Assembly (NCBI GenBank): GCA_947652325.1 | Contig: CANTCQ010000004.1 | Coordinates: 1-64,000, forward strand | From: an uncultured Mycoplasmatota bacterium | GTDB taxonomy: Bacteria; Bacillota_I; Bacilli_A; RF39; UBA660 | Direction of reading: 5' to 3' | DNA length: 64,000 nt | Shown here: positions 8,668 to 55,060 of the stretch, one piece after another | How the letters are laid out: each line of letters begins with the position of its first letter | Position numbering within the stretch: the stretch's first letter is position 1 | Translations under genes and position numbers: made by a program | The notes under the pieces: generated by a model | What the model was told of the DNA's origin: nothing | Databases searched by the model: none | What the model saw: only the letters and a program-made list of their open reading frames with translations

Positions 8668-8919
8668 TCATTGTTTTTTAGCGTATTTTTCCTTTGTTGC
8701 TTCTCCTCCTTTAATATGTCTTATTTTTAAATGTTCTTTTAAAATTTTTTCTACTTCTATATAATTTGTAGGAGAAATCTTTATTAATCGATGTTGTATA
8801 TCTTTATGAACTGTACTTTTACTTACATTAAAATACCTTGCAGTATTTCGTATGTTTTCTTTTGTTTTTATTATGTATTTTGCTTCTTCTAATACTCTTC
8901 TTTCGATATTTTTATCCAT
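8668..8919 (-). CDS. spoIIID: SpoIIID mother-cell transcription factor
   Basis: DNA-binding regulator acting with sigma-E in the mother cell, repressing and activating its regulon and helping switch to sigma-K. The 83 residues match the family size. The helix-turn-helix is NIRNTARYFNVSKSTVHKDI (22-41), followed by a basic C-terminal tail. It lies downstream of spoIIQ behind a hairpin that covers its ribosome site. Confidence 0.96.
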   Translation of the reverse strand: MDKNIERRVLEEAKYIIKTKENIRNTARYFNVSKSTVHKDIQHRLIKISPTNYIEVEKILKEHLKIRHIKGGEATKEKYAKKQ

Positions 8920-8926
8920 TATTTAA

Positions 8927-8964
8927 ACAACCCCTTGATAAACTATATTTATACATGGGGTTGT
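8927..8964 (-). promoter_or_regulatory. Hairpin in the spoIIQ-spoIIID gap masking the spoIIID ribosome site
   Basis: Perfect 8-base arms, minus strand ACAACCCC and GGGGTTGT, with a 22-base loop. The only purine-rich stretch before spoIIID (AAGGGG) is in the 3' arm. No strong T run follows, so partial termination or translational control are both possible. Confidence 0.55.
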
Positions 8965-8970
8965 CTATTC

Positions 8971-9597
8971 TTAATTTAGTTCATTGATGTCCATTTTATA
9001 AAAGGTTTCTGGATTTAGCACTTGGCCATTGTAATTTACTTCAAATAGCATAGTATTTTGTTTGCTACTAAATTTATTATTATTACTTTTTCCAATAACA
9101 TCACCTTGATTTATGGTATCATTCGGTTTTATATTCACATCTTTTAAACCATAATATATGGTTGTTAAATTGCTATTATGTGATACGTACACTACAGTGT
9201 TTAAAAGTTCATCTTGTTTTACATCAATTACTGTTCCTTTATAAACAGCTACTACATCAAATTCTTCTTCGCTTCCATAAATTACTCCACTGTTTTGAAG
9301 GTATGTATTTTCATAATAAATTAGAGATTTTTGTTGTTGTTCTTCTGTACCTTCTTTTTCATAAAACGATTTGTCTATTGAAACTTTATCACTGGTAAAT
9401 GGTTTTATTAAAGTTTCTGGAATTGTACTTACAACAGGTGTTACAATATCAAGTAAAGAGTTTACAACATAATTTCCTTCTTCTTCCTCTTTTGGTTTTA
9501 AATTTTTTGTAATAAGCATTACTGCCATAAAAATAATGCTCATACTTACTAAGAATAATGTTGGTTTTACATATCCTCTTAATTTTCTTTTGGTCAT
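8971..9597 (-). CDS. spoIIQ: SpoIIQ forespore membrane protein, LytM domain without zinc ligands
   Basis: Forespore half of the SpoIIQ-SpoIIIAH channel across the intermembrane space. 208 residues: a basic start, one membrane span (about residues 14-30), a linker and a C-terminal M23/LytM fold (about 100-195). The positions normally holding HxxxD and HxH contain no histidine (the end reads MLFEVNYNG), so it should be a structural pseudo-peptidase. I chose ATG at 9597: the GTG three codons upstream lies inside the ribosome site AGGAAGGTGG. A sigma-F promoter sits inside the end of spoIID. Confidence 0.93.
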   Translation of the reverse strand: MTKRKLRGYVKPTLFLVSMSIIFMAVMLITKNLKPKEEEEGNYVVNSLLDIVTPVVSTIPETLIKPFTSDKVSIDKSFYEKEGTEEQQQKSLIYYENTYLQNSGVIYGSEEEFDVVAVYKGTVIDVKQDELLNTVVYVSHNSNLTTIYYGLKDVNIKPNDTINQGDVIGKSNNNKFSSKQNTMLFEVNYNGQVLNPETFYKMDINELN

Positions 9598-9618
9598 TAT
9601 TTCCACCTTCCTAATAGG

Positions 9619-9648
9619 TAGTTTCTCCCAAAAGATTACGATTTATAC
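9619..9648 (-). promoter_or_regulatory. Predicted sigma-F promoter of spoIIQ
   Basis: Minus strand GTATA (9644-9648), 15 bases, GGAGAAACTA (9619-9628). This matches GYWTA and GGNRANAMTW in full. spoIIQ is sigma-F dependent in Bacillus. The implied start of transcription falls right at the ribosome site, giving a very short leader. Confidence 0.75.
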
Positions 9649-10554
9649 CATTTTCTTTATGGTTATATCATTATAATAATAATTTAAAATATCCTGATAG
9701 TTATATCCTTCTTTAGCCATACCATTTGCTCCATACTGACTCATACCTACTCCATGCCCATATCCACGTGTGATTATGGTAACTTTATCTAATTCAATGT
9801 CTATGGTAAAATCCGTAGAGCGAAGATTTAAAAGTTTTCTAATTTCTGTTCCTAAATACTCATTATTGTTAATTTGTAATTTATTTACGCGATTACTAGT
9901 GGAACGATTTATATTATCTATTTCTATTTGATTACAATTTTCTAATTTTAATTTATTACAAAATTCTTCTTTGGAAAAAGTAGTTTCCACTGTAAAGTTT
10001 TTTAATGTTTCATTATCCCAAGTAGAAGGAACTGATTTTATATAAGGCACTTCTTCTTGAAAGACGCTTTGGGCATTTTCAGTAGTACCATTACTCATGG
10101 CAAAATAAAAGGCTTCTATTATTTCATTACCATAATACATTACTTCTTTTTCTGTTTCTGATACAGCTTTTGTAATTTTGTTTACATAAAAGGCATAATC
10201 TTTTTGCCATTTTTGTTGCATTTCTTCTTTTGTAATGTATGATTGGTTGGTTACATCCGTTAAAATATTGTAATCTTCATTTTCACTATGCATAATTTTA
10301 TACATGGCATATGTTCTTGCTGCAACAGCTTGTGCTTTTAAAGCTTCTTCATGAAAAGATGCTGGCATTTCAGCAGCTAGTACGCCAATTAAATATTCTT
10401 CTAGTTTCAGCTCTTTTATTTTGTCTTCTTTTGTTTTTATTTTTATAGTCTTTTCAGGATTAAAAAAAGAGTGATTTATCTCTTTTTGTTTTATCACTAC
10501 TCCTAAAATACAACTTAAAATCATTACCACTCCTACTAATATTTTATTTTTCAT
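9643..10554 (-). CDS. spoIID: SpoIID lytic transglycosylase
   Basis: Peptidoglycan-cleaving enzyme that works with SpoIIM and SpoIIP during engulfment. 303 residues with an N-terminal membrane anchor (about 4-21) and the SpoIID fold outside. The catalytic glutamate is Glu62 in LAAEMPASFHEEALKAQA, in the same context as Glu88 of B. subtilis SpoIID. The C-terminal GYGHGVGMSQYGA block is intact. It follows ywzB by 11 bases. Confidence 0.97.
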   Translation of the reverse strand: MKNKILVGVVMILSCILGVVIKQKEINHSFFNPEKTIKIKTKEDKIKELKLEEYLIGVLAAEMPASFHEEALKAQAVAARTYAMYKIMHSENEDYNILTDVTNQSYITKEEMQQKWQKDYAFYVNKITKAVSETEKEVMYYGNEIIEAFYFAMSNGTTENAQSVFQEEVPYIKSVPSTWDNETLKNFTVETTFSKEEFCNKLKLENCNQIEIDNINRSTSNRVNKLQINNNEYLGTEIRKLLNLRSTDFTIDIELDKVTIITRGYGHGVGMSQYGANGMAKEGYNYQDILNYYYNDITIKKMV

Positions 10555-14768: not shown

Positions 14769-15308
14769 TTAAAATTTGCATAAATGAAATAAGCCGATGA
14801 TTATTAAAAGTATTGCCCCAAATATAGTAGCGTATATACCCAGTAAATAATTGGCATATTTTCCAATTAGTAATCCTAAATAAGTAAAACAAAAGCTTAC
14901 TCCAGAAAAAATAAATACTGCTAAAAACATATTGCTAGTAATAGCAGGAAGTCCTATTCCAGTTGAAAATGAGTCAATAGATACTCCTAAGGCTAGTAAA
15001 AACATATTTATTAAATTCATGTCTTTTTGTTGCTCTTCTGGTTTAATGAGTTCAATAAACATTGTTATGGCTAAATAAATTAAAATAATTCCCAATAAAA
15101 AATCACTTTTCAAAGTAAAAAAAGAAACTAGTTTTTTTCCTAATAGTGAGCCTAATATTGGCATTATAAAATGCATTATCCCTACTATTATGGAAAATAT
15201 AAGCATTCTTTTTTTTGTTATATTACTGGTACCTATTCCTAAAGAAAGAGAAAATGTATCCATACTCAAGGCAATAGCAATGATAAATAGAGTTATGATT
15301 TCTTTCAT
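14769..15308 (-). CDS. MntP/YtaF-family manganese efflux protein
   Basis: 179 residues, about six membrane spans, built from two related halves each starting with a conserved acidic motif: ALSMDTFSLSLGIG (residues 13-26) and ALGVSIDSFSTGIGL. This is the DUF204/MntP pattern. Position next to spoIIR matches ywlD of Bacillus. Its start codon follows directly on a terminator-like hairpin that contains its ribosome site. Confidence 0.85.
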   Translation of the reverse strand: MKEIITLFIIAIALSMDTFSLSLGIGTSNITKKRMLIFSIIVGIMHFIMPILGSLLGKKLVSFFTLKSDFLLGIILIYLAITMFIELIKPEEQQKDMNLINMFLLALGVSIDSFSTGIGLPAITSNMFLAVFIFSGVSFCFTYLGLLIGKYANYLLGIYATIFGAILLIIIGLFHLCKF

Positions 15309-15341
15309 AAAAAATCCTCCTAGTTAACTATACTAAGAGGA
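15309..15341 (-). promoter_or_regulatory. Terminator-like hairpin carrying the mntP ribosome site
   Basis: Minus-strand arms TCCTCTTAG (15333-15341) and CTAGGAGGA (15315-15323), one G-U pair, 9-base loop, then T6 (15309-15314) and the mntP ATG. It can end the spoIIR transcript and, if read through, hides the AGGAGG. Confidence 0.75.
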
Positions 15342-15352
15342 GTAGGTAAACA

Positions 15353-15859
15353 TTACATATATTTTTCGACTATATTTTTTACAAAAAATTGATAATCTAC
15401 ATCAGAAGTATTTTTAGCAGTTGCATCCATTAAGCATAGAGGAGGAAAGAGAACACACCACCAATTTTCTCCAGAACCACTACCTAAAGTTACAACAAGA
15501 GATTCATAATTTCCAGCTTCATATTTAATTCCTTTGTATGTTTTTTCTGGAAAATAATTGTTTCCATATTGAATATCATAAGATAAATTGTATTGATTTA
15601 TCATACTTTTAATCTCAGGAATTTTACTGTTTACAAGTATTTTTGCATCATTTTTATTTTTAGCTGCCATTATATCGGTTTTTAATAACTTTTCAATGTT
15701 ATTTTTGATTTCCATTTTTGTTGCTTGGTCTTCAAAAGTATTAGAATTTGCAATAACTCTTAAACGAATAGCACTATCTGGTATAATAAATTCTTCTTTT
15801 TGATTGGTTATTAATAAAATTATAGTAAATAAAAATAAGACTATAATTATTTTTTTCAT
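15353..15859 (-). CDS. spoIIR: SpoIIR, sigma-E activating signal protein
   Basis: Forespore-made protein that triggers SpoIIGA to process pro-sigma-E in the mother cell. 168 residues with an N-terminal membrane/export segment (about 4-18), the family block DSAIRLRVIANSNTFEDQ and the C-terminal GENWWCVLFPPLC block. The position between prfA/prmC and mntP is conserved, apart from an inserted glycosyltransferase. Confidence 0.96.
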   Translation of the reverse strand: MKKIIIVLFLFTIILLITNQKEEFIIPDSAIRLRVIANSNTFEDQATKMEIKNNIEKLLKTDIMAAKNKNDAKILVNSKIPEIKSMINQYNLSYDIQYGNNYFPEKTYKGIKYEAGNYESLVVTLGSGSGENWWCVLFPPLCLMDATAKNTSDVDYQFFVKNIVEKYM

Positions 15860-44566: not shown

Positions 44567-44572
44567 CTATTT

Positions 44573-44643
44573 GTGCAACGAATATATTGTAACTTGGTCA
44601 GAATCGGAAGATAGCAGCCATATCAGTCTCTGTTCGTGTGCAC
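44573..44643 (+). ncRNA. ffs: Signal recognition particle RNA, minimal bacterial type
   Basis: About 71 bases. The helix 8 core GGTCAGAATCGGAAGATAGC followed by AGCC matches the conserved Ffh-binding loop (GGTCAG..CGGAAG..AGCAGCC). The ends pair: GTGCA-A-CGAA with TTCG-TG-TGCAC. T7 follows directly (44644-44650). No Alu-type domain is present, unlike the 271-base scRNA of B. subtilis. Position beside tadA and dnaX is conserved. Confidence 0.9.
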
Positions 44644-44670
44644 TTTTTTTATTTTATAGGTGAATTTAAA

Positions 44671-54852: not shown

Positions 54853-54858
54853 AGGCTT

Positions 54859-55060
54859 AATTAACAAAGAAGGAAAGAGTAACCTTTTGGAAATTTTTAG
54901 AGAGTTTGTTAGTGGTGAAATGCAAACAATGAATATTAGGTGAACATGGTTCTGGAGTTAAAACGATTTATTCTCGTTACGAATTAGAAAGTGCATGATT
55001 AATCATGAATTAAGGTGGTACCGCGGAAATTTTCGCCCTTAATTTATGATTTTTTTATTT
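54859..55060 (+). promoter_or_regulatory. T-box riboswitch, predicted methionine specifier
   Basis: The T-box sequence AGGTGGTACCGCGG is at 55013-55026; UGGU pairs with a tRNA ending ACCA. The terminator stem is ATCATGAATTAAGG with CCTTAATTTATGAT, then T7 (to about 55057). Stem I contains AGAGTAA and, on its 3' side, GAAC-ATG (ATG at 54946-54948), read as a Met specifier. Uncharged tRNA-Met should permit transcription of the cupin, SDR and metG genes. Confidence 0.9.

Follow-up and report, generated by a model that had tools for sequence, protein, structure and literature searches.

A conserved hairpin that carries the ribosome-binding site of an mntP/ytaF-like gene and encloses a predicted promoter in an RF39 bacterium and its relatives

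How is a gene expressed when its ribosome-binding site lies within what looks like the transcription terminator of the gene upstream? This question is raised by the gap of about 44-45 nt that separates spoIIR from an mntP-like gene on the minus strand of contig CANTCQ010000004.1, of which we analysed positions 1 to 64,000 (this whole 64,000-nucleotide stretch is called the window below). We infer that the source organism belongs to the order RF39. Read 5′ to 3′ along the minus strand, the stop codon TAA of spoIIR (15355-15353) is followed by TGTTTACCTAC, the 5′ arm of a hairpin, the loop TATAGTTAA, the 3′ arm, TTTTTT and the mntP ATG at 15308 (Table 1). The stem (15341-15315) starts 11 nt after the stop codon and contains 9 base pairs, one of them G·U, or 10 when the next A-T pair is counted; the 27-mer has a minimum free energy of -12.5 kcal/mol. 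Ten pairs of this stability followed by T6 make up the stable stem and U-tract of a predicted intrinsic terminator. The AGGAGG lies within the 3′ arm, and 7 nt separate its end from the ATG. This layout, in which the 3′ arm contains the ribosome site and the T6 run leads directly to the ATG, is that of the original prediction; in the genus, mntP was found at 20 loci, and each of them folds the hairpin.

Table 1. Features of the spoIIR–mntP gap and of a second hairpin upstream of spoIIID (window coordinates)
Feature	Position	Strand	Basis
spoIIR, sigma-E activation signal protein, gene 5′ of the hairpin	15353..15859	-	Pfam PF09551 E 3.6e-35; TIGR02837 E 9.5e-36, below cut-off
GTAATGTT, weak -35-like element assigned to the predicted mntP promoter; overlaps the spoIIR stop codon	15349..15356	-	best placement, pooled sigma-E model
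Hairpin 5′ arm TCCTCTTAG	15333..15341	-	pairing, fold
TATAGT, -10-like box of the predicted mntP promoter, within the hairpin loop	15327..15332	-	position conserved in family
Predicted mntP transcription start, first bases of AGGAGG	15320..15321	-	-10 spacing and conserved T-1/A0
Hairpin 3′ arm CTAGGAGGA	15315..15323	-	pairing, fold, swap-test covariation
mntP ribosome-binding site AGGAGG	15316..15321	-	sequence; 7 nt from ATG
T6 run, terminator U-tract and ribosome-site spacer	15309..15314	-	sequence
mntP/ytaF-like membrane transporter, 179 aa	14769..15308	-	Pfam PF02659 E 9.4e-28; TIGR02840 and NF008546 under cut-offs
Second hairpin GACAACCCC ... GGGGTTGTT; its 3′ arm contains AGGGG, the spoIIID ribosome site, and its arms enclose TATAGT (8947-8942)	8926..8965	-	fold, scan
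spoIIID, 3′ of the second hairpin	8668..8919	-	Pfam PF12116 E 9e-26; TIGR02844 E 7.1e-26, below cut-off
spoIIQ-like gene directly 5′ of the second hairpin	8971..9597	-	NF053738 SpoIIQ E 2.1e-37, below cut-off; Pfam PF01551

The product of mntP belongs to the Pfam family Mntp (PF02659, 97.3 bits for a cut-off of 24.4), and scores below the cut-offs of both the MntP exporter model NF008546 (43.1 bits, cut-off 214) and the YtaF model TIGR02840 (46.9 bits, cut-off 149.6); the YtaF and MntP models are both matched by 17 of the 17 aligned members (E≤0.001). A search of solved structures by sequence with the transporter profile gave no match at E≤1. In the account of PMC9332280, ytaF is the sporulation member of this transporter family and is sigma-E-dependent in Bacillus subtilis and Clostridium perfringens, and the C. 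perfringens ytaF mutant forms spores at an almost wild-type level. The window gene resembles ytaF (TIGR02840), as described there, in its Pfam family and in its predicted sigma-E regulation, and differs from it in that its product falls below both the YtaF and the MntP cut-offs.

The organism belongs to a family of uncultured gut bacteria, and its genes point to sporulation. RF39 is predicted to be able to sporulate, according to PMC10868615. Best matches, all under the curated cut-offs, place spoIIGA-, sigE- and sigG-like genes side by side in a row in the window genome, which has sigF- and sigH-like genes too, and a sporulation cluster comprising spoIIID, the spoIIQ-like gene and spoIID occupies positions 8668-10554 of the window (minus strand). 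The genome also carries a sigK-like gene that stops after its N-terminal half (L175:628-1023; G000:C2, ~154,330-154,720). Its 131 aa match positions 4-116 of the 235 of the SigK model, a helix-turn-helix gene adjoins it, and it looks like a sigK interrupted at a skin-like element.

Is the hairpin more than a chance pairing in a short gap? A pattern scan of 3 kb on both strands found one terminator-like site for 0.9 expected, and this count by itself is weak evidence. We found mntP in 20 of the 22 genomes of the genus that were searched, and the 20 hairpins have folding energies of -7.9 to -15.6 kcal/mol. For the family we collected 134 mntP upstream regions among the matches listed (30 + 24 + 80 from successive searches); the second search matched 240 genomes, of which a part was listed, and matches with internal stops or lower scores were mostly left out. 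Seven further loci were kept out of the counts: two that we looked at (L035 and L037) have no such hairpin by eye, and the rest are repeats or partial. Start codons were chosen by a score favouring a good ribosome site, so that GGAGG conservation is partly built in; the -10 box discussed below lies outside that score. The helix score is ad hoc and its thresholds are arbitrary, with the same picture at three of them, and a loop-limited census replaced a noisy one without loop limit. Among the matches listed, 57 of the 92 non-redundant family loci reach a helix score of at least 18 (null 5.7%) and 41 of 92 reach at least 20, their 3′ arm containing the ribosome site (null 2.6% with dinucleotide-shuffled upstreams), the 35 loci below 18 having no strong hairpin. 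Strong ribosome-site hairpins were seen at 0 of 42 murA starts and 0 of 30 tig starts (30 of the 56 matching genomes), and at 8 of 354 other ribosome-site-bearing starts of the same genome, all neighbour types included (score at least 20, null 0.8%); in only one of these 8 is the stem followed by at least 4 T within 8 bases.

Furthermore, the two arms vary together. When arms were swapped between mntP loci, mean pairing fell from 13.9 to 10.0 (n=79), and none of 1000 permutations reached the pairing of a locus with its own arms, which was reached by 97 of 1000 for spoIVA and 700 of 1000 for murA. The mntP hairpin is not due to chance, since it is conserved across the genus and the family, and its arms covary. 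We also noticed that mntP loci with a GGAGG ribosome site have a mean arm score of 18.8 (n=40) against 8.5 for those with GGTG (n=25), a link due in part to the stronger pairing of GGAGG.

To which gene does the hairpin belong? The end of spoIIR lies at most 120 nt upstream of mntP at 115 of the 134 loci, 70 of which have a helix score of at least 18. At the other 19, another co-directional open frame is directly upstream, and the helix is kept at 17; for 15 of them the sequence examined showed no spoIIR, and at 4 it lies farther upstream. Four of six such neighbours compared with Pfam could be named (UDG, FemAB, PemK/MazF-like and flippase), and the locus with the PemK/MazF-like neighbour is one of the two without helix. 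The element is therefore not simply the spoIIR terminator, as the original prediction had it: the hairpin stays with mntP beside other neighbours.

It could still be an ordinary terminator of whichever gene stands upstream, re-using the ribosome site as the only G-rich stretch in a short AT-rich gap and having no further function. The gap is indeed only about 44 nt long, all 19 neighbours other than an adjoining spoIIR are also co-directional open frames, and a T-run accompanies the hairpin (family mean of 5.8 T in +6..+13 with strong hairpins versus 3.6 without). However, other starts rarely use their ribosome site in this way, as the murA, tig and same-genome counts indicate, and even when the upstream neighbour is co-directional and 16-150 nt distant, only 4 of 127 starts reach a score of 20 (no loop limit), mntP and spoIIID among them. 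Moreover, the hairpin follows mntP to other neighbours, and among the matches listed only 53 of 87 mntP hairpin loci have the U-tract expected of a pure terminator (at least 4 T within 8 bases 3′ of the stem). For strong non-redundant hairpins the figures are 22 of 41 for mntP, 13 of 35 for spoIIR and 1 of 7 for spoIIID. Since U-tracts are often absent, many of these hairpins may sequester the ribosome site without terminating transcription. We consider an ordinary terminator without further function an unlikely explanation.

A second conserved feature lies between the arms. A -10-like box, TAnnnT, stands at a fixed position 11 nt 5′ of the ribosome site, whether a hairpin is present or not. 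In an ungapped alignment of the 134 loci on the ribosome site, T-11, A-10 and T-6 are each found in 115, A-8 in 95, T-1 in 114 and A0 in 121. Of 88 non-redundant loci, the 49 with a strong hairpin have T-11 in 83%, A-10 in 87% and T-6 in 87% of cases, and the 19 with a weak hairpin or none have them in 89%, 84% and 89%. The box is not a by-product of the loop, because it is equally strong where the hairpin is missing. Among the hairpin loci with an exact TAnnnT, the hexamer lies wholly in the loop at 43 of 71 and reaches into the stem at the other 28. By its position and sequence TAnnnT would be a -10 box, and as such it would place the transcription start at the leading A or G of AGGAGG. An mntP mRNA with this predicted start would lack the 5′ arm, and the hairpin would then act on read-through RNA only. 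An mRNA that starts with its own ribosome site is unusual, and this counts against a nested promoter. The predicted 5′ leaders of mntP, spoIIR and spoIIID all begin at or beside the ribosome site; those of tig, judged by eye, look longer and of TTG/TATAAT type.

Which sigma factor would use this promoter? Motifs were learned separately from spoIVA, spoIIID, spoIIR and 229 intergenic starts of the window genome, mntP being kept out of training. According to PMC3789822, spoIVA and spoIIID are sigma-E targets and spoIIR is partly under sigma-F in C. difficile. Expectation maximization on 75- or 60-base spoIIID upstreams caught other signals, mainly the spoIIQ terminator, and on 48 bases gave GTATAAA-like/TATATAATTTA; the spoIIID motif sets are without L203 and L205, and for L226 no start was found. 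As an extra sigma-E set, spoIIIAA was dropped: it gave matches in 11 of 58 genomes, and ten of these matches were weak (E 1.6e-5 to 7.0e-4). The spoIIR motif, TGAATAA -N15- nnCATTATTA, mostly ends 3, 4 or 7 nt 5′ of the ribosome site, and we take it to be like the sigma-F/G (forespore) consensus. The 229 intergenic starts gave TTG and TGnTATAAT, features that the mntP upstreams lack.

Among the matches listed, 91 mntP loci were classed as sigma-E (62), sigma-F (12), sigma-A (2) or none (15), and no locus exceeded z=2 for sigma-A. The corresponding numbers are 8, 5, 14 and 15 for 42 murA starts, and 22, 19, 128 and 60 for the 229 other starts of the window genome; the F model was trained on spoIIR and the A model on the genome's starts, so that the assignments of spoIIR to F (75/77) and of generic starts to A (128/229) are not independent. 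With both the pooled and the spoIVA-only models, 66 of the 91 mntP loci have their best sigma-E site at T-11, versus 3.5% of shuffled sequences (spoIVA-only model). A freshly trained spoIVA model gave mntP a mean of 4.9 versus 3.0 for shuffled sequences, with none at 12 or above and with 48 of 91 best hits at one distance; the class calls rest on the aligned spoIVA and the pooled models. A -35 and -10 with the spacing of the family's spoIVA/spoIIID promoters is thus seen across the family and is marginal in the window genome, where the -35 is poor (sigma-E z 1.45, sigma-A z 1.17); across the family the -35 is clearer (G[TC]ATAAA-like).

The closeness of these two values leaves room for a housekeeping sigma-A promoter, with mntP expressed vegetatively and the hairpin acting as an insulator only, and TATAGT does match TATAAT at 5 of 6 positions. 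We nevertheless think it improbable, in view of the two sigma-A calls in 91, all at z of 2 or less, the missing TTG and TGnTATAAT features, and the sigma-E dependence of ytaF elsewhere, as reported in PMC9332280.

What would the hairpin do to the RNA? In the predicted fold of the window's read-through RNA the ribosome site has an unpaired probability of 0.00, and the mean over the 134 loci (among the matches listed) is 0.19, versus 0.33 when the upstream sequence is shuffled. In RNA starting at the predicted mntP start the family mean is 0.52; for the window it is 0.23 in isolation, the site being part-paired with the coding region. Real and shuffled upstreams hardly differ in read-through access for spoIIR (0.39 vs 0.42) and spoIIID (0.29 vs 0.29).

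Taking the conserved hairpin, the fixed -10 box and the predicted folds together, we think that the spoIIR–mntP gap is probably a nested promoter–terminator–ribosome-site element shielding mntP from read-through. Polymerase arriving from the upstream gene, spoIIR here and others elsewhere, would copy both arms and terminate at the U-tract, and any escaping read-through RNA would have its AGGAGG paired and be poorly translated. Mother-cell polymerase carrying sigma-E would bind the -10 box in the loop and start at the AGGAGG itself, and the resulting mntP mRNA, with a leader of about 13 nt and no 5′ arm, would be translated. The promoter motif of spoIIR, learned from spoIIR itself, looks like sigma-F/G (forespore); in this genome the element would then keep forespore transcripts from yielding a mother-cell membrane protein. 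Termination and translation of mntP had originally been proposed to be mutually linked. This fits read-through RNA, in which one conserved, covarying structure would link them, and does not extend to the predicted own transcript, which would escape the hairpin. The proposal of an internal promoter within spoIIR is not borne out either, as comparative sequence predicts the likely promoter between the arms, and with it a start site there, which the original prediction had named as evidence against itself.

Two other mechanisms were considered. In translational coupling, ribosomes ending spoIIR would open the stem and reload at AGGAGG. The stop codon is well placed for this in the window, 11 nt 5′ of the stem, but at 114 of 119 loci it lies anywhere between -64 and -4 of the ribosome site, the hairpin is kept without an adjoining spoIIR, and the T6 run should end the RNA ahead of mntP; coupling is very improbable. 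Least probable of all is an attenuator, with mntP transcription coming from upstream and with manganese or some other cue picking between terminator and an antiterminator freeing the ribosome site: Firmicute riboswitches are well known to act through a terminator whose 3′ arm holds the ribosome site, but no Rfam cis-regulator is found at the locus, the upstream sequence is the coding region of another gene and varies with the neighbour, and the fixed -10 box is left unexplained. With 11 nt between the spoIIR stop codon and the stem, there would be room for an aptamer only within spoIIR. The suggestion of manganese control finds no support: an Rfam scan of the whole window at gathering thresholds gave no yybP-ykoY match, its hits being a T-box leader (54858-55043) and a bacterial small SRP RNA (44569-44649), both elsewhere. 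The stem is also a palindrome in DNA and was considered as an MntR-type operator; its arms vary by locus and stay complementary, a poor fit to a fixed protein site.

The shielding element proposed for mntP may have counterparts. Besides the second hairpin of the window (Table 1), ribosome sites in a hairpin arm were found at 35 of 80 non-redundant spoIIR starts (null 1.5%), a set that includes the window genus; the genus itself has 0 of 20, the hairpin cases belonging to other genera. L107, L115, L126, L130 and L134 are spoIIR examples with the sigma-F/G-like motif. Such hairpins occur at 7 of 27 spoIIID starts (null 4.4%) and at 2 of 28 spoIVA starts (null 1.8%), and with so few at spoIVA there is no rule for all sigma-E genes. 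In the swap test, own arms scored 13.4 versus 7.1 swapped for spoIIR and 12.0 versus 9.1 for spoIIID, with 0 of 1000 permutations reaching the own pairing in either case. For spoIIR, spoIIID and spoIVA together, at a score of at least 18, the hairpin is present at 0 of 9 starts with a divergent upstream neighbour versus 25 of 99 with a co-directional one, small numbers in the first class. A gene without known sporulation role, for an Fe/Mn superoxide dismutase (L180:18829-19443; G000:C1, 58,829-59,443), also has its ribosome site in a hairpin arm and TATAAT between the arms (ATAACTTC-TATAATTTAAT-GGAGGTTAT).

We tentatively extend the proposal to a recurrent, family-wide gate between cell types that needs no regulator, an extension that we consider possible rather than probable. 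Sporulation genes lying behind another gene would have a compartment-specific sigma promoter nested in a hairpin that ends transcripts from the other compartment or from vegetative cells and masks their ribosome site, so that one DNA would give RNA that is silent in one cell and active in its sister.

Part of this logic is familiar from phage T4. As described in PMC3014915 and PMC2988022, long upstream RNAs pair the ribosome site of gene e and of I-TevI (soc and 49 are listed too), and late promoters just 5′ of the ribosome site yield RNAs without the inhibitory 5′ strand, which are translated. On these accounts the logic is that proposed here: read-through RNA hides the ribosome site, the gene's own RNA frees it, and a sigma switch selects between them. 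The mntP element shares with the T4 genes a ribosome site that is paired in the predicted read-through RNA and a predicted promoter sequence between the arms. Unlike gene e, it is chromosomal and lies among sporulation genes of a bacterial family, a U-tract after its ribosome site makes the hairpin terminator-like as well, and its two sigma factors would act in different cells and not at different times. It would thus differ from T4 in acting as a terminator, in serving sporulation and in working across two cells.

Fold-back inhibition of the IS10 and IS50 transposases is another relative, in which external read-through RNA hides the ribosome site and the element's own RNA does not. Unlike the mntP element, it serves transposon self-protection, and we know of no nesting there of promoter and hairpin in one 40-base unit with a terminator. 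In riboswitch-type terminators (yybP-ykoY and others) the ribosome site may be near or within the terminator stem; the mntP element differs from these in having no aptamer that we found and no antiterminator, and in having its predicted promoter inside the stem-loop. Among the titles and abstracts listed from open-licence PMC, none describes a promoter placed inside a terminator whose arm holds the ribosome site.

In conclusion, a 'terminator' placed 5′ of a start codon in such genomes may contain a promoter, and operons called from 40-base gaps may be false. The proposed element predicts that the mntP/ytaF-like transporters act in the mother cell. Nested promoter–hairpin control as such is already known from phage T4; if our reading is true, it would here be a conserved and recurrent element in the development of bacteria with compact genomes, and would make translation cell-type-specific without a regulator.
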